Source: Myxococcales bacterium (lineage in GTDB: Bacteria > Myxococcota_A > Polyangia > Polyangiales > Polyangiaceae). From it: a stretch of 40,409 nt of DNA. Where the stretch lies: contig JAAFHV010000055.1 in NCBI GenBank assembly GCA_013297655.1, positions 608 to 41,016 on the forward strand, given 5' to 3'. The notes beneath the pieces were generated by a model, which searched no databases, was not told the origin of the DNA, and saw only the letters and a list, made by a program, of their open reading frames with translations. The position numbers and the translations under genes are program-made. This document shows positions 1 to 6,878 of this stretch, piece after piece (within the stretch, counting starts at the first letter, position 1; each line of letters opens with the position of its first letter).

Positions 1-759
1 GTCGTCGCGGTGCTGCCGAGCGATCATCACATCGAGGACGAGCCCGCGTTCCGCGAGGTGCTCGCGAAGGCCTACGCCACCGCGCGGAGCGGCCCGTGCA
101 CCACCATCGGCATCGTTCCCACCCGCGCCGAGACCGGCTTCGGGTACATCGAGGTCGGCGCGAGCCGCGGCCCGAACGCGAACAACGTGGTGCGCTTCGT
201 GGAGAAGCCCTCCCGCGAAGTGGCCGAGGGCTACGTCGCCGGCAAGAAACACCTGTGGAACGCGGGCATGTTCTTCTACCGGGTCGACGTGATGACGTCC
301 CTCGTCGGTGAGCATCTGCCCGCGATGGCGGAGGCCACCCAGCGCATGGTGGAGCGCGTCGCGAAGGGCGACAGCGGCGCCATCGCGGAGATCTTCCCCA
401 CCCTCGAGAGCATCTCCATCGACCACGGCGTCATGGAGAAGGCGAAGGAGCTCGCGGTCGTCCCCGGTAGCTTCGGCTGGAACGACGTCGGCAGTTGGCA
501 GAGCGCGTGGGAGCTCGCCGCAAAGGACGACAACGGCAACGCCCTCCCCGAGGGTGCCTTCACGAAAGATGCAGAGCGCAACTACTTCGCGAGCCTCGTC
601 TCGTCCGGAGCGAAGAAGCACGTCGCGTTCGTCGGCGTGTCGGACCTCGTCGTCGTCGAGACCGACGACGCCGTCCTCGTGCTCCCCCGTGATCGCGCGC
701 AAGACGTGAAGCTGGTGGTAGAGGCCTTGAAAGCCGCCGGAAAACGCGAGCTTTTGTAG
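1..759 (+). CDS. manC: Mannose-1-phosphate guanylyltransferase, C-terminal part (5' truncated by window)
   Basis: The reading frame is open from the first base, so the start lies upstream of the window. About 250 C-terminal residues are present; the family is usually 350-360 residues for the stand-alone enzyme, so roughly the first 100, with the nucleotide-binding loop, are missing. Motifs seen in order are TGFGYIEVG, FVEKP (the NDP-sugar pyrophosphorylase catalytic strand), WNAGMFFY, SIDHGVMEKA and WNDVGSW, all typical of GDP-mannose pyrophosphorylase. The enzyme makes GDP-mannose from GTP and mannose-1-phosphate in the cytoplasm for polysaccharide or glycoconjugate synthesis. It ends right after the nucleotidyltransferase domain, with no fused phosphomannose isomerase domain. 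The phosphohexomutase at 27446 is far away, so no operon link is visible. Confidence 0.9.
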   Translation, partial: VVAVLPSDHHIEDEPAFREVLAKAYATARSGPCTTIGIVPTRAETGFGYIEVGASRGPNANNVVRFVEKPSREVAEGYVAGKKHLWNAGMFFYRVDVMTSLVGEHLPAMAEATQRMVERVAKGDSGAIAEIFPTLESISIDHGVMEKAKELAVVPGSFGWNDVGSWQSAWELAAKDDNGNALPEGAFTKDAERNYFASLVSSGAKKHVAFVGVSDLVVVETDDAVLVLPRDRAQDVKLVVEALKAAGKRELL

Positions 760-962
760 CTCCGCGGCCGCTTCGGCGGAACGATGTGGGAGAGGCATCT
801 TCCGTCGAGCCGGCTCTCGCCGTCGTGGCCTGACGATGTCCCTGTTACGTGCCCACTTCGTGCTCGATGGCCCCCCTTGCTCGGCGGCCCGCGATCGCGG
901 CTACCCGCGAAGGTGCCCTCGTTCGACGCAGGCACCTCCGTAGGCAGATAGAGATCCGCGAT

Positions 963-985
963 CATTATGATCGGTGCTCATAATG
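963..985. promoter_or_regulatory. Inverted repeat upstream of the DUF234 ATPase (candidate operator)
   Basis: Arms CATTATGA (963-970) and TCATAATG (978-985) form a perfect 8-bp inverted repeat with a 7-bp spacer, 21 bp before the ATPase start codon. The stretch is markedly AT-rich for this genome, and a TATACA at 994-999 lies between the repeat and the ATG. It could be an operator or simply part of an AT-rich promoter. There is no biochemical evidence. Confidence 0.35.
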
Positions 986-1005
986 TTCGTTGATATACAT
1001 CTTTC

Positions 1006-2331
1006 ATGGTGGACTTCGTCAATCGCAAGCTCGAGCTCTCGGAGCTCACCGCGCTCGCGGAGCGGGGCGGTCTCGTGGTGGTCTACGGGCGGCGCCGAGT
1101 CGGCAAATCGCGGCTGCTCACGCGTTGGCTCGCGGAGCGGGGCGGTCTCTACGCGCAGGCCATCGAAGGCTCGCCGGCGATGCAGATGGAGCAGCTCGGG
1201 CGCGATCTGCGCGAAGGGGCGGGCGCGCTTCGGCAGGGCCCCGAGCTCACGCCACGCACGTGGGTGGAGTTCTTCGAGCTGCTCCGGCTCGATGGGCACC
1301 CGATCGTGTGCATCGACGAGTTTCCGTACCTGGTGCTCGCCGATTCGACGCTTCCCAGCGTCGTGCAGCGATTCGTCGACCACCGCATGCCCAAGGGGAT
1401 GACGCTGATCCTCGCCGGGTCGAGCATGCGGATGATGCACGATACGTTCTTGAACCGCGGCGCGCCGCTCTTCGGCCGCGCCGCGAAGCTTCTCCCGATA
1501 CGGCCGATGAGCTACCTCGCTTTCGCGGAGTCGGTGGGGAACGCGGCGGCTCTACGCGGCACCTTCGAGAAGTTCTCGCTGGTGGGCGGCGTCCCCCGGT
1601 ACTGGGAGTTCGTGCGCCCGCGCGCCTCGGCGGTGGAGCTTTCGGAGAGCCTCTTCTTCGGATTCGCGCCGTACTTCGGCGAGGAGCCCGCGCGCCTCCT
1701 GAAGGACGAGGGAATCCAGGGGCAGAACCCGCTCTCGGTGCTCGAGGCCGTGGGGCGCGGTGCGACCAAACCCTCGGAGATCGCCGCCCGTCTCGGCACC
1801 GCCCAGAGCAACCTCACCCGCATCTTCGATGCCTTGGTGGACGCCGCGCTGCTCGCCCGTGAGATCCCCTTCGGGGAGAGCTCGCGCACCACCAAGCGCG
1901 TCCTCTATTGCATCGCCGACCCCGCGCTGCGCTTCCATTTCCATGTATACTCCCCGCACCGTACGCGCTGGCAACACTACGCGGCGGAGGAAAAAGCACG
2001 CCTGGTCGCGACCCACGTCGGGCCCGTCTTCGAGGCCTGGTACCGCGCCGCACACCCCGGCAGCGGCCGCTACTGGGAGGGCGAGCGCGAATTCGACGTC
2101 GTTCGCCTCGAGACCTCACGCGGCAAAACGCGGCCCGTCGTGAGCGAGCTAAAATGGGGTGAGGTCACCAAGGCCGAACGCGTCCGTCTCGAAGAGCGCA
2201 TCGCGCTGGCCTGGACCGCCACCACTCCCGGCAAGAAGTACGGGCCCTGCGAGGTCGAGATCGTGGACTCGTCGCTGCTCAAAGACGCGCCACGAATGAA
2301 ACGCCTCTGCGCTGCGCAAGAGCGGGGATAG
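1006..2331 (+). CDS. AAA ATPase of the archaeal-ATPase/DUF234 family
   Basis: A 441-residue STAND-like P-loop ATPase. The Walker A GRRRVGKS is at residues 28-35 and the Walker B IVCIDEF at about 100-106, followed by a sensor strand LILAGSS. A winged-helix-like segment (PSEIAARLGTAQSNLTRIFDALV) sits at about 250-280. The C-terminus carries the DUF234 module, where FDVV followed by SELKWG resembles a PD-(D/E)xK nuclease core. Family members are common in accessory regions and in archaea; their function is poorly defined, with DNA-linked stress or defence roles proposed. The ATG at 1006 is the first in-frame start after an AT-rich promoter-like stretch; no clear ribosome-binding site is visible, so the message may be leaderless. 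It is a single-gene unit, next to the AbiE pair. Confidence 0.85.
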   Translation: MVDFVNRKLELSELTALAERGGLVVVYGRRRVGKSRLLTRWLAERGGLYAQAIEGSPAMQMEQLGRDLREGAGALRQGPELTPRTWVEFFELLRLDGHPIVCIDEFPYLVLADSTLPSVVQRFVDHRMPKGMTLILAGSSMRMMHDTFLNRGAPLFGRAAKLLPIRPMSYLAFAESVGNAAALRGTFEKFSLVGGVPRYWEFVRPRASAVELSESLFFGFAPYFGEEPARLLKDEGIQGQNPLSVLEAVGRGATKPSEIAARLGTAQSNLTRIFDALVDAALLAREIPFGESSRTTKRVLYCIADPALRFHFHVYSPHRTRWQHYAAEEKARLVATHVGPVFEAWYRAAHPGSGRYWEGEREFDVVRLETSRGKTRPVVSELKWGEVTKAERVRLEERIALAWTATTPGKKYGPCEVEIVDSSLLKDAPRMKRLCAAQERG

Positions 2332-2469
2332 CCCAACCCAGAAGGCACAAGCGGGGAGGGTTTCGGTGCGCCCAGTCCTGTCCTTTTCCGGCGCCCGAGC
2401 CGGGTGAACGTCGTCCAGCGACGAGGCCGATGGATCGCACTGCCTAACCCGTCGCTCGCACCAAGCACG

Positions 2470-2528
2470 CCCACGGTTCGTAAACGTCGCCGGTTTGCAT
2501 AAAACGGAACCGTGGGTTACGTTTTGTG
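2470..2528. promoter_or_regulatory. Operator-like palindrome array before abiEi
   Basis: Bases 2498-2528 form a near-perfect palindrome: arms CATAAAACGGAACC and GGTTACGTTTTGTG around a central GTG, with 12 of 14 positions paired (mismatches at 2500/2526 and 2507/2519). A third half-site, CCCACGGTT at 2470-2478, is the exact reverse complement of AACCGTGGG at 2508-2516. AbiEi antitoxins of characterised AbiE systems are known to repress their own promoter by binding inverted repeats, so this is a strong candidate autoregulatory site. The GTG at 2512 sits in the palindrome loop, which makes the GTG at 2530, just after it, an attractive alternative start. Confidence 0.6.
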
Positions 2529-3114
2529 TGTGCCACAATCGAAGTCCAGCAAGCCCGACTGGGATCGGCTGTTCGAGATCGCCGCCGCGCAGTCGGGGTA
2601 CGTCACGACGCAACAGGCTGCCGAGGCTGGTTACTCTACCCATCTGCTTCGGAAGCACATCCACGCCGGCCGCGTGGCGCGGCGTCGGCGGGGCATCTAC
2701 CGGCTCGTGCATTTCCCGGCTGGGGAGCACGAGGAGCTGGTCACTGCGTGGCTGTGGTCCGAGCAGGCGAGCGTCATCTCGCACCAGACGGCGCTGTCAC
2801 TGCACGGACTCTCCGACGCGCTGCCGGCGCAGGTTCACCTTACGCTTCCGGCTGCGTGGACGAAGCGGCGCTTTCGTGTGCCGCGCGACGTGGTGCTTCA
2901 CTACTCCGACATAGCACCCGAGGACCGCGCTTGGTCCTCGGCTGTCCCGACCACGAACCCGCGCCGCACGCTAAACGACTGCGCGCGCGAGGGACTCTCG
3001 CCCGATTTGCTTCGACAAGCGGCGCAACAGGCACTTCGCCGCGGCCTCGTCACGACGCCGGAGCTCCGTGAGGTCGAAGAAGCGCTCGACCCGTTCGGAG
3101 GGATCGTCGCATGA
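2512..3114 (+). CDS. abiEi: Type IV toxin-antitoxin AbiEi family antitoxin (transcriptional regulator)
   Basis: A 200-residue protein with the AbiEi N-terminal winged helix: a segment like GYVTTQQAAEAGYSTHLLRK (about 30-50) followed by the basic wing HIHAGRVARRRRGIYRL. The C-terminal domain contains SHQTALSLHGL and the late NPRRTLNDCAREGL segment usual for these antitoxins. Its role is to neutralise the co-encoded nucleotidyltransferase toxin and to repress the operon. It overlaps the toxin gene by 4 bases (ATGA), so the two are translationally coupled. Start uncertain: GTG 2512 lies inside the palindrome; TTG 2524 or GTG 2530 would shorten the protein by 4 or 6 residues without touching the domain. 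Confidence 0.85.
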   Translation: MGYVLCVPQSKSSKPDWDRLFEIAAAQSGYVTTQQAAEAGYSTHLLRKHIHAGRVARRRRGIYRLVHFPAGEHEELVTAWLWSEQASVISHQTALSLHGLSDALPAQVHLTLPAAWTKRRFRVPRDVVLHYSDIAPEDRAWSSAVPTTNPRRTLNDCAREGLSPDLLRQAAQQALRRGLVTTPELREVEEALDPFGGIVA

Positions 3115-4013
3115 CGATTCGCACGTACTCGTCGCCCGAGGCCTTCAAGCAGGCCCTCGAACAGCGCTTGCGCACATCCACCAATTCTGGCGCCGAGTTT
3201 GCCCGCAAGCGGCAACTGCTGGTGTTCGATCGTTTCCTGGCTCGCGTCGTCGCTGTGCTCGGTGATTCGGCGACGCTCAAAGGCGGGCTCGTCCTCGAGC
3301 TGCGAATCGACCGAGCTCGCACCACGAACGACATCGATCTGCGAATGATCGGCTCGCCCGACGACATGCTCGCGCGCCTTCAGGAGGCGGGACGTCGCGA
3401 GCTTGGCGACTTCTTCACGTTCGAGGTCCGCCCCGACGAGGACCACCCCGAGATTCAGAACGACGGCGTCCAGTACGACGGGCTTCGCTTCCGCGCCGAG
3501 TGCAAGCTCGCTGGCAAAGTCTACGGCCAGCGCTTTGGCGTCGACGTCGCGTTCGGCGACCCGATCCTCGGCGAGCCGGAGAGCGTGGTGGCGGACGACG
3601 TCCTCGCCTTCGCCGGCATCGCGCCACCGACGCTGCGCCTCTACCCGATCGAGACGCACCTCGCCGAGAAGCTGCACGCATACACGATGCCGCGGTCGCG
3701 CCCGAACTCGCGTGTGAAAGACCTCCCCGACATCGCGCTGCTCGCGACGGCGCAGTCCATCGAAGCGACGCGTCTGCGGATGGCTCTCGAGCAGACCTTC
3801 ACGTTCCGCAAGACGCACGCGCTGCCGGCGAAGGTGCCGGCGCCGCTCGCGGCGTGGACGGCGCCCTACGCAGCGATGGCTCGCGAAGACCAGCTCGCGT
3901 GGCGCTCTCTCGACGAGGTGACGCGGGCGGCCCAGACCTTCCTCGACCCTGCGCTCGCAGGACCCCTCGTTGCCACGTGGGAGCCCGAGACCTGGAGTTG
4001 GCGACTTCCGTGA
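3111..4013 (+). CDS. abiEii: Nucleotidyltransferase AbiEii/AbiGii-type toxin
   Basis: A 300-residue protein with the full motif set of the AbiEii/MenA-like nucleotidyltransferase fold. KGG is at 57-59, followed by ARTTNDIDLR with the metal-binding D74 and D76. VDVAF (D145) is the third acidic strand, and ETHLAEKLHA (K187) and RVKDLPDIALL (201-211) are the conserved helical motifs. Characterised relatives transfer nucleotides to RNA targets such as tRNA and cause abortive infection or growth arrest; the target here is unknown. It starts with the ATG of the ATGA overlap with abiEi. All catalytic residues I can recognise are intact, so the system looks functional. Confidence 0.87.
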   Translation: MTIRTYSSPEAFKQALEQRLRTSTNSGAEFARKRQLLVFDRFLARVVAVLGDSATLKGGLVLELRIDRARTTNDIDLRMIGSPDDMLARLQEAGRRELGDFFTFEVRPDEDHPEIQNDGVQYDGLRFRAECKLAGKVYGQRFGVDVAFGDPILGEPESVVADDVLAFAGIAPPTLRLYPIETHLAEKLHAYTMPRSRPNSRVKDLPDIALLATAQSIEATRLRMALEQTFTFRKTHALPAKVPAPLAAWTAPYAAMAREDQLAWRSLDEVTRAAQTFLDPALAGPLVATWEPETWSWRLP

Positions 4014-4043
4014 CCTTGTGATCACGCCGAAACGAGGTCGGCG

Positions 4044-4160
4044 GATCGTCGAGCCTCGACCGTATTTGGAGCCTACGTCGCACTCTCGCGTCGGCGGACA
4101 CCAGGTCGTCGGTCTTGCGTGGTTCGGTGGATACCAAGTCTTGACGGTTGCTCGACGATC
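4044..4160. repeat. 117-bp segment bounded by 11-bp perfect inverted repeats
   Basis: GATCGTCGAGC at 4044-4054 is the exact reverse complement of GCTCGACGATC at 4150-4160. Both ends are flanked on the outside by GCG (4041-4043 and 4161-4163), which could be a 3-bp target duplication or chance in GC-rich DNA. The interior has no gene and contains a degenerate direct repeat (GGACACCAGGTC at 4096, GGATACCAAGTC at 4129). It might be a small mobile-element relic or an operator/terminator region between the toxin gene and the next gene. Confidence 0.3.
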
Positions 4161-4295
4161 GCGCGGTTTCGCGCTCTTTTTTCCGAGGTTCCGTCGGTTG
4201 CTCCATCCCAACGCTTCTGTGTTGCAAGAGCATCGCAGATACAAAAAAAGCTAACGCTTGCGGTTCGCGCGGCCGTGAGGAAAAACGGGCGGACC

Positions 4296-4568
4296 ATGGC
4301 AAAGAACGGAAAGAAGTCGGCCCTCCAGAAGGCTGCGTCGAAGAAGCTCGCCGGCATCGGCCCCGCGGCGCCGAGCGCCGAGCAAGTCGCTCACATGATG
4401 CTTCACGCCGAGGAGCGTGGAGAGGTGAGCCGCGTCCGCCTCGAGGACGGCTCGTGGGGCTGGGCGCGCGCGCGCCAAGACGGCAAGACCGAGGTCATGC
4501 GCCCCACCCCCGAGATGCTCGAGTACCTCTCGCGTTGGGAAGCCGGCGCCGCGCACCCCACGCACTGA
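4296..4568 (+). CDS. Small protein of unknown function (90 aa)
   Basis: A 90-residue protein starting MAKNGKKS with a basic N-terminal third (KKSALQKAASKKL) and an acidic/mixed C-terminal part containing a WGWARARQDGKTEVM strand-like segment. It has no signal peptide or membrane segment, so it should be cytoplasmic. GAGG at 4277-4280 is the nearest ribosome-binding-site-like sequence, 15 bases before the ATG, so translation initiation is not strongly defined. I do not recognise the family. The codon use fits the host, the ATG is well placed after an A-rich stretch, and a strong hairpin follows the stop, which together support a real gene. Confidence 0.6.
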   Translation: MAKNGKKSALQKAASKKLAGIGPAAPSAEQVAHMMLHAEERGEVSRVRLEDGSWGWARARQDGKTEVMRPTPEMLEYLSRWEAGAAHPTH

Positions 4569-4589
4569 TCACGACTCGTTCTCACGCTT

Positions 4590-4655
4590 CCGCGCGAAAC
4601 GAGCTCTCGGTCCTCTTCGGAGGCAGCCGGAGCGTCTCGCGCGGTTCGAGTTTTG
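4590..4655 (+). terminator. Putative hairpin terminator after the 90-aa gene
   Basis: CCGCGCGA (4590-4597) pairs with TCGCGCGG (4637-4644). Nested inside is CCTC-TTCG-GAGG (4612-4623), a UUCG tetraloop closed by C-G, one of the most stable RNA hairpins. A short GTTTTG follows at about 4650. The T-tract is weak, so this may be an imperfect intrinsic terminator or only an RNA-stabilising structure. Confidence 0.35.
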
Positions 4656-4712
4656 TCGGCCCGCTCGTGCCGCGTTCGGTGCTCTAGGTGCGCCAAAAAC
4701 GCGGGTGCTTCT

Positions 4713-6878
4713 TCAGGGTTTCCACTTCGCGGTCGCGCGCTTCTTGGCGGCGGGGGACCGCGCGAGCGGCTTCTTGGTGTCGGCGGCGGCGGCCGGCTTC
4801 TTTCGCGTGCGCGACTTGGGTGAATACGGCTCGTACCCGCCCTCGAGGGAGGCCTGCGTGATCTCGGACCCGAGGGCGGCCTCGAGCCTCTTCAGGTCGT
4901 CGCGGAGTCGAGCGGCCTTCTCGAAATCGAGCGCCTCGGCGGCGGCGAACATCTCGGCGCGGAGGGCGCGGAGGGTCTCCGTGGGGTCGGCCGAGGTGTC
5001 GTCCGCTTTGCCCTTCTTGCTGCCGTCGGCGCGAAACTTGGGCACCTCGACATAGTCGATCGTGCCGGCGGCCGGGTTCATGTTCATGATCGCGCGAACG
5101 ACGGTCTGCGGCGTGATGCCGTGCTTCTCGTTGTAAGCCGCCTGGATGACGCGCCTTCGGTTCGTCTCGTCCATGGCTTGTTTCATCGCCTTGGTGATCG
5201 AGTCGCCGTACATGATCACGCGCCCATTCGCGTTTCGGGCGGCGCGGCCGATGGTCTGAATGAGCGAACGCGGGCTGCGGAGGAAGCCCTCTTTGTCGGC
5301 GTCGAAGATGGCGACGAGCGACACCTCGGGCAAGTCGAGCCCCTCGCGGAGCAAGTTGATGCCGACGAGCACGTCGAACTCGCCGAGCCGCAAATCGCGC
5401 AAAATATCCATGCGCTCGAGGGTGTCGATGTCGGAATGGAGATACCGAATGCGAACCCCGAGCTCGCGGTAATAGTCGGTCAGGTCCTCCGCCATGCGCT
5501 TCGTGAGAGTGGTGCAGAGCACACGCTCGTTGCGCTCGGCGCGGAGGCGAATCTCGGTCAAGAGGTCGTCTACCTGCCCCGCGACGGGGCGCACCTCGAT
5601 CACCGGATCGAGGAGGCCGGTCGGCCGGATGAGCTGCTCGACGAACACGCCTTCGGCCTTATCGAGCTCGTAGTCGCCGGGCGTCGCCGACACGTAAATG
5701 GCCTGCTTGATGTGGGCCTCGAACTCGTCGAACTTCAGGGGGCGGTTGTCGAGCGCGCTCGGCATCCGGAAGCCGTACTCGACGAGCGTCTCTTTGCGCG
5801 CGCGGTCGCCCTTGTACATCGCGCCCACCTGCGGGACCGTCTGGTGCGACTCGTCGAGCACCATGAGGAAGTCGCCCGGGAAATAGTCAATCAGCGTGGG
5901 CGGCGGATCGCCGGGCTTTCGATTCGACAGGTGGCGCGAGTAGTTCTCGATGCCATTGCAGAAGCCCATCTGCTCCATCATCTCGATGTCGTACTGGGTG
6001 CGCTGCTCTAGCCGCTGTTTTTCGACGAATTTGCCGGCTTTGTCGAACACGTCGAGCTGCTCACGGAGCTCTTCCCGAATGCTCGATACGGCCTTTCGCA
6101 TTTGGTCTTGCGGAGTCACGTAGTGCGAGCCGGGGAAGATGGCATACCGCTGGAGCGAGCCGCGCACCTTGCCGCGGAGGGGATCTACCTCTTTGATCGC
6201 CTCGATGGTGTCGCCGAAGAACTCGATACGAATCGCGGTCTCGTGCTCGTAGGCGGGGAACACCTCCACCACGTCGCCGCGGACGCGGAACGTGCCGCGG
6301 TGGAAGTCGACGTCGTTTCGCTCGTATTGGATGTCGACGAGCATGCGCAGCAACGTGTCGCGGCGGAACTCTTCGCCCACCTTCAGGTCGATGAGGAGCC
6401 CGTGGTAGCTCTCGGCGCTGCCGATACCGTAGATGCAGCTCACGGAGGCGACGATGATCACGTCGCGGCGCGAGAGGAGCGCGTGGGTCGCCGCGTGGCG
6501 CATGCGATCGATCGCGTCGTTGATGATCGCGTCTTTGTCGATGTACGTGTCGCTCGTGGGGACGTACGCCTCGGGCTGGTAATAGTCGTAATAGGATACG
6601 AAATACTGGACCGCGTTCTCCGGGAAGAGCTCGCGCATCTCCCCGTAGAGCTGGGCGGCGAGCGTCTTGTTGGGCGCGAGGATGAGCGCCGGCCGCTGCG
6701 CCTTCGCGATCAAATTGGCGATCGTGAAGGTCTTACCGGAGCCCGTGATCCCGAGCAAAACCTGGTGCTTTTCCCCGCGCTCGAGCCCCGCGACGAGCTG
6801 GGCGAGGGCGGCAGGTTGGTCACCTCGCGGCTCGAACGACGTGACGAGCTTGAATGGCCTCTCCGACATGAAGCGCAC
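4713..6878 (-). CDS. uvrB: Excinuclease ABC subunit B
   Basis: UvrB, the damage-verification helicase of nucleotide excision repair, which takes DNA from UvrA and recruits UvrC. It shows Walker A GITGSGKT (about 43-50), the beta-hairpin region with [18 protein letters not shown], helicase motifs [28 protein letters not shown] and QTIGRAARN, and a C-terminal UVR (UvrC-interacting) domain around [20 protein letters not shown] Lys-rich tail of about 45 residues follows and makes it slightly longer than usual. Start: GTG 6878 has GGAGGA (6887-6892) 8 bases upstream and gives MRFMSERPF; the ATG at 6869 gives the textbook MSERPFKL start but with 17-base spacing. The gene stands alone. Confidence 0.96.

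Follow-up and report, generated by a model that had tools for sequence, protein, structure and literature searches.

The window, that is the whole stretch of 40,409 nucleotides analysed here, carries two genes of an AbiE system on its forward strand. The gene abiEi (2530–3114, + strand) would encode an antitoxin/repressor of 194 amino acids when read from GTG 2530, and abiEii (3111–4013, + strand) a nucleotidyltransferase toxin; the two reading frames overlap by 4 nt (ATGA). The product of abiEi matched the winged-helix antitoxin family AbiEi_4 (PF13338) with 49.8 bits at a cut-off of 25, and its partner matched AbiEii/DUF1814 (PF08843) with 120 bits at a cut-off of 22.5. These matches bear out the initial annotation, which had placed a palindrome at the head of an AbiE operon. 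A comparison with PADLOC AbiEi gave 1.6e-73. The best Foldseek match was AbiEi in 6y8q with an E-value of 1.3e-5, yet with a TM-score of 0.29, and a profile of the protein reached an E-value of only 0.02 against PDB sequences. A genome-contig scan gave 24 loci, 22 of them with AbiEii; in L019 and L023, the two without it, the sequence breaks off 131 and 4 bases past the AbiEi match, respectively. Among 150 of 238 candidates scored in the window's genome, one matched AbiEi_4. An AlphaFold model of AbiEi, based on 21 alignment rows and with a mean pLDDT of 65, predicts with low confidence a helix at residues 37–45 in which residues 38 and 42 lie one turn apart. This helix, with His38 and Lys42 in the window, is likely the recognition helix of AbiEi; given the weakness of the model, the contact geometry is not readable from it.

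The palindrome upstream of abiEi and its conservation

A 35-bp dyad, the putative proximal operator, occupies positions 2496–2530 (+ strand). Its 16-nt arms pair at 12 of 16 positions around a 3-nt centre at 2512–2514 (centre base 2513), and its core reads CATAAAACGGAACC-GTG-GGTTACGTTTTGTG. The near-perfect palindrome reported before at 2498–2528 was recovered, with 12 of 14 pairs between the arms 2498–2511 and 2515–2528 and the GTG at 2512–2514 as the loop. Positions 2470–2479 are a perfect 10-nt inverted match of 2507–2516. Palindromes of equal quality (arms of 14, at least 12 pairs, gap of 0–10 nt) occupy seven places of the 40-kb window (9 rows), and block shuffling of 2401–2540 produced one in 7 of 2000 rounds. 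Taken singly, the palindrome therefore proves little, and its significance derives from its conservation upstream of abiEi across loci.

Relatives were collected from the genome-contig scan (24 loci, mostly from Polyangiaceae, Myxococcales or Deltaproteobacteria, and one from Planctomycetota), from the window's genome and from a search of the phylum, in which 82 of 377 genomes had a match. A scan of viral contigs gave one distant relative. Twelve places of the phylum search, mostly partial matches, and eight places found later, partial or duplicate, were left out. The collection comprised 103 distinct upstream regions, with distinctness judged by identity over the last 100 nt; one was too short, which left 102, the window's own included. 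At one locus (L002) a tRNA gene at 1869–1941, separated from the downstream abiEi by about 100 bp, marks a possible integration site.

A motif of 45 positions was derived from an alignment seeded via a regular expression on 38 sequences, and the 42 sites outside the seed were examined separately. It reached a score of 5 bits or more in 80 of the 102 abiEi upstream regions of the window's phylum (window included) and in 2 of 2040 block-shuffled upstream regions; the remaining 22 of 102 fell below 5 bits. The consensus is approximately TTGCAcAAAAC..AA.C-nnn-G.TTA..TTTtGTGc, followed by the start codon. Applied to 42 held-out loci, the frozen motif reached 5 bits or more in 35. This set was left from 53 fetched loci after 11 were skipped as already in training; it stems from the window's own class and retains near relatives, with 34–96% identity to the nearest training protein. 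A short core pattern was useless as a search query, with 343 matches against 473 for the reversed control. A model built from 19 operators, including that of the window, gave 51.5 bits to the window site and 17.1 bits to its reverse reading, and the next separate place in the genome scored 13.5 bits (E 0.38). Among 150 of 1692 first-look candidates scored, a second convincing operator, as expected for a regulon in trans, was not found in the window's genome.

Promoter signature and start codon

Positions are numbered with the usual start codon at +1, which corresponds to 2530 in the window. A putative −35 element, TTGCAT (2495–2500, + strand), lies in the left arm and reads TTGCAC in most relatives; a putative −10 element, TACGTT (2518–2523, + strand), lies in the right arm behind a 17-bp spacer. 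The motif is spaced like a sigma70-type promoter with 17 bp between its two elements. Across the 80 sites, conservation reached 91% for T−35, 91% for T−34 and 93% for G−33, and 96% for T−12, 86% for A−11 and 95% for T−7. The same bases were found in 35, 35, 37, 39, 32 and 38, respectively, of the 42 non-seed sites. The −35 hexamer of the window fits TTGACA at three positions only, and a consensus promoter scan of 2300–2700 found none. Inverted repeats lie over the putative abiE promoter, as in an AbiEi autoregulatory operator, and the palindrome is most likely the operator by which AbiEi would regulate its own operon.

The start codon is locked to the motif. An in-frame ATG or GTG stands at +1 or +2 in 70 of the 80 loci, with N-termini of differing length, and is missing there in the other ten. 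Among the held-out loci the proportion was 26 of 35, and six of the other nine have an ATG at +4. The GTG at 2530–2532 (+ strand) is most likely both the start codon of AbiEi and the transcription start. In a survey of leaderless genes (Zheng et al. 2011, PMC3160421), as far as its available parts go, such genes are recognised by TANNNT whose first T stands some 12 bp ahead of the start codon, and this signal was described for 8 of 33 delta-proteobacterial genomes. TANNNT is found at this distance from the abiEi start codon. This spacing and the start-codon lock together indicate that the abiE mRNA is most likely leaderless from GTG 2530, with the AbiEi start at 2530 and GTG 2512 upstream of the transcript.

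A neighbouring gene of the window, ATPase_2/PDC-S27 with its ATG at 1006, is preceded by a palindrome at 959–989 (12 of 14 pairs, 3-nt gap, within 959–1008) and, at 12 bp from the ATG, by TATACA; on these grounds this gene, too, may lack a leader and be under operator control. In a copy of 90% identity (L126), GATATACAT is retained ahead of the ATG, where the available sequence stops.

Distal palindromes and covariation with AbiEi

A search for palindromes resembling each locus's own proximal arms revealed a complete second, distal palindrome in about 28 of the 80 loci, against 0.8 expected at a shuffle floor of p ~0.01. Two candidates (L071 and L078) had been removed by eye and one (L098, p 0.02) was kept. 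The centres of the distal and proximal palindromes are 38–66 bp apart, most often 51–54 bp. The window's own copy (L025) showed no significant complete distal site. Its alignment with 13 relatives places a remnant distal right arm at 2475–2490 (+ strand) and a degenerate left arm at 2456–2471 (+ strand), whose GGAAC core is lost. The two centres, 2473 (distal) and 2513 (proximal), are 40 bp apart; whether this shortened spacing reflects a deletion or substitutions depends on the alignment.

The additional half-site that the initial annotation had seen at 2470–2478 is thus real as an inverted match, extending to 2479, and belongs to the right arm of a distal palindrome instead of being a lone third site. 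A cooperative array of three half-sites, one followed by an inverted pair, was discarded because relatives carry two whole palindromes, of which the distal one is degenerate in the window. Since it has decayed in the window's genome, repression there probably rests on one dyad. Helical phasing of the operator pair is not claimed: the Rayleigh R was 0.41 at 10.5 bp (p 0.017, uniform null with kinship ignored), and a period of 11.5 bp fits better.

The proximal palindrome is imperfect where the promoter would demand it. The palindrome mate of A−11 is complementary in only 31 of the 80 loci, leaving a pair that is not Watson–Crick in 49, and T−35, which lies outside the dyad, has a complementary mate in 10% only. 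With sites treated as independent, A at the −11 equivalent was present in 24 of 28 proximal versus 8 of 28 distal sites (Fisher p 3e-5) and T at the −7 equivalent in 26 versus 9 (Fisher p 4e-6). Conversely, pairing at −11 was retained in 18 of 28 distal versus 7 of 28 proximal sites (Fisher p 0.007, sites again taken as independent). An asymmetry at A−11 that is strong in the proximal copies and weaker in the distal ones is expected of a promoter constraint laid over an operator. The distal right arms (about 28 loci, e.g. L004 and L017) have A instead of the symmetric T at the −7 equivalent in 19 of 28 cases and A at the −8 equivalent in 16 of 28.

The bases of the palindrome co-vary with residues of AbiEi. 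Among 2772 residue–base pairs in the 80 loci, the top four joined residue 42 with −14 and −20 and residue 38 with −23 and −24. In 26 representatives of less than 60% identity, residue 42 again took ranks 1 and 2 with an exception-free table, and residue 38 ranked third with −23 and tenth with −24. In the held-out loci, predictions from residue 42 were right in 29 of 35 on each arm (16 of 16 on both arms for Lys42) and those from residue 38 in 26 of 35. Over all 115 loci, Lys or Arg at position 42 occurred with C at −20/−14 in 52 of 52 cases and Tyr, Phe or Ala with A in 17 of 17. His42 loci follow the code less strictly: His-His loci have G on at least one arm in 35 of 36, and the seven His-Tyr loci are mixed. 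At residue 38, His accompanied GG in 23 of 23, Gln TA in 53 of 60 and Pro TT in 19 of 24 of these loci. With His38 and Lys42, the window has GG and C as predicted. On a tree from which the DNA-binding domain had been left out, the class of residue 42 changed 22 times and base −14 changed 21 times, with only 25 changes when both were counted jointly. At the distal sites the base fitted residue 42 in 27 of 28 left arms and 24 of 28 right arms; part of this fit is built in, the sites having been selected for similarity to the proximal arms. This covariation of operator and protein ties the palindrome to AbiEi.

Among five plasmid loci of other phyla, only that of Simkania (Chlamydiota) has a dyad at the same offset, with 14 of 16 pairs. 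In this locus (L139, Simkania negevensis plasmid, upstream of 577) the dyad centre lies 17 bp before the ATG. The geometry is kept but Tyr42 occurs with C at −20, against the code, and the residue–base code is therefore proposed for the window's phylum only. The same upstream region carries TTGACA within one base of the −35 position. The Deinococcus locus has a dyad about 50 bp upstream (13 of 16 pairs) and the Thermus locus weak dyads (11 of 16) at −5 and −50; for the Neochlamydia and M. branderi loci no dyad above 10 pairs of 16 was found. A study of Deinococcus-Thermus reportedly deals with leaderless genes whose TANNNT lies some 12 bp ahead of the start.

Proposed mechanism and comparison with known systems

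The conservation, the promoter signature, the start-codon lock and the covariation are read directly from the sequences. From these we infer binding, repression and the transcript start: the palindrome is very probably the autoregulatory operator of an AbiE type IV toxin–antitoxin system, superimposed on the core promoter of a leaderless mRNA that begins at GTG 2530. The dyad would span −34 to +1, with the −35 element in the left arm, the −10 element in the right arm and +1 at the first base of the AbiEi start codon. Most likely, each arm would be bound by one AbiEi monomer via its winged helix, with the inner bases recognised through residues 38 and 42, and the bound protein would exclude RNA polymerase. 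The earlier suggestion that an AbiEi site could block transcription fits this well, as the operator most likely sits at the operon promoter and is tied to AbiEi by covariation. When AbiEi is scarce, the promoter would fire and both genes would be made from the leaderless mRNA. Some relatives would have an extra operator, mostly about 50 bp upstream, which in the window would have decayed to part of one arm.

The position of the start codon might be read differently. If translation began at GTG 2512 in the operator loop, as first annotated, an mRNA hairpin would also hide the ribosome site. GTG 2512 is in frame and opens the longest reading frame, and the palindrome strand folds as RNA (−15 kcal/mol, z −2.25), as any palindrome would. 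The start at the 2530 equivalent in most loci, however, argues against this reading, as do a stop codon immediately 5' of the conserved start in some relatives (L009, L016 and L022), the frequent lack of Watson–Crick pairing in the stem at −11 and an Rfam search of 1–6000 without a match at gathering score. With +1 at 2530 the palindrome would be untranscribed, so that the ribosome-blocking hairpin is not supported; an RNA element, though its hairpin folds, was rejected as absent from a transcript beginning at the start codon. We consider translation from the loop very unlikely. It is somewhat easier to imagine, though still unlikely, that the operator acts as proposed on a transcript that starts further upstream and has a leader. 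In the available parts of Dy et al. (2014, PMC3985639) the abiE transcript of S. agalactiae starts 26 bp before the ATG and has a ribosome-binding site, and in one exceptional relative (L053) the first in-frame ATG stands at +14 and is preceded by GGAGG. The distance from −12/−7 to the start codon is nevertheless fixed, whatever the N-terminal length.

Two further readings question the link to AbiEi itself. Binding of AbiEi to its repeats has been published for distant homologues only, and a global or phage factor could occupy the palindrome instead; we hold this to be highly unlikely, as the bases co-vary with residues of the AbiEi recognition helix (22 and 21 changes on the tree, but only 25 when taken jointly) and no second convincing site emerged among the genome candidates scored. 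A palindrome arising by chance or composition would agree with the seven such places in the 40-kb window, but hardly with recurrence at one fixed position in 80 of the 102 upstream regions, and its probability is close to nil.

Returning to the AbiEi operator over a leaderless start, we think it fairly probable that the AbiE systems of the phylum share one 35-bp element that superimposes operator, −35/−10 and start codon and is read via a modular two-residue code. As part of that reading and with the same reservation, Lys or Arg at residue 42 would specify C, His G, and Tyr, Phe or Ala A, and at residue 38 His would specify GG, Gln TA, Pro TT and Glu CT. If true, the code could keep different AbiE systems mutually insulated and would allow operators to be predicted for uncharacterised ones. 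The start codon would be drawn into the repressor site and the likely gene start corrected to 2530 from 2512. A vague palindrome would thereby be turned into base-by-base predictions of transcript and protein starts, of promoter versus operator bases and of two specificity residues.

Autorepression by AbiEi at inverted repeats, also in tandem pairs, is already known; the leaderless fusion and the residue–base code, as proposed here, are new. A literature search with most subscription papers outside it found neither a leaderless abiE promoter nor an AbiEi residue–base code; in the available text of PMC7319586 'leaderless' occurs only in the reference list, and promoter detail was not found in the part of the Mesorhizobium AbiEi paper at hand (PMC8436566). 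The accessible description of S. agalactiae abiE (Dy et al. 2014, PMC3985639) reports that AbiEi represses its own promoter via inverted repeats, with 23-bp arms, a 3-bp centre, the −35 element TTGCTT in the left arm and a 17-bp spacing. The window resembles it in the bicistronic order abiEi–abiEii with a 4-nt overlap, in repeats with a 3-bp centre over the promoter, in the −35 element in the left repeat and in the 17 bp to the −10 element. In S. agalactiae, however, the outer 11 bp of the arms are perfect, whereas the arms of the window are about 16 nt long and their co-varying bases lie inside; the mapped start precedes the ATG, whereas in the window the start codon would lie at +1. Instead of two 23-bp repeats 3 bp apart, conservation ends at 16-nt arms around the shared 3-bp centre, save for T−35 and the start codon, and the operator of the window is a variant geometry relative to the S. 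agalactiae form.

The promoter of rv2827c–rv2826c in M. tuberculosis, as far as described in the available parts of Beck et al. (2020, PMC7319586), has two pairs of inverted repeats between −1 and −131 of the start codon. It resembles the loci with both distal and proximal palindromes in its tandem pairs, the proximal of which (−1 to −71) lies over the predicted promoter, but has 23-bp repeats with 13-bp gaps inside the pairs in place of 3-bp centres at a centre distance of 38–66 bp. Unlike there, the distal pair was often not found in the relatives and has decayed in the window. The same source reports positive cooperativity of AbiEi in S. agalactiae and negative cooperativity for Rv2827c, and that neither protein binds the repeats of the other; the latter could in part be explained by the residue–base code. 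The window shares with the TANNNT leaderless genes of Zheng et al. (2011, PMC3160421, available parts) a −10 element whose first T lies 12 bp before the start codon; their analysis was genome-wide, whereas here the −10 element and start codon would also belong to a repressor site. Judged on sequence evidence, the window holds a compact and apparently leaderless version of a known type of AbiEi operator, in which one dyad is intact and the other has decayed.
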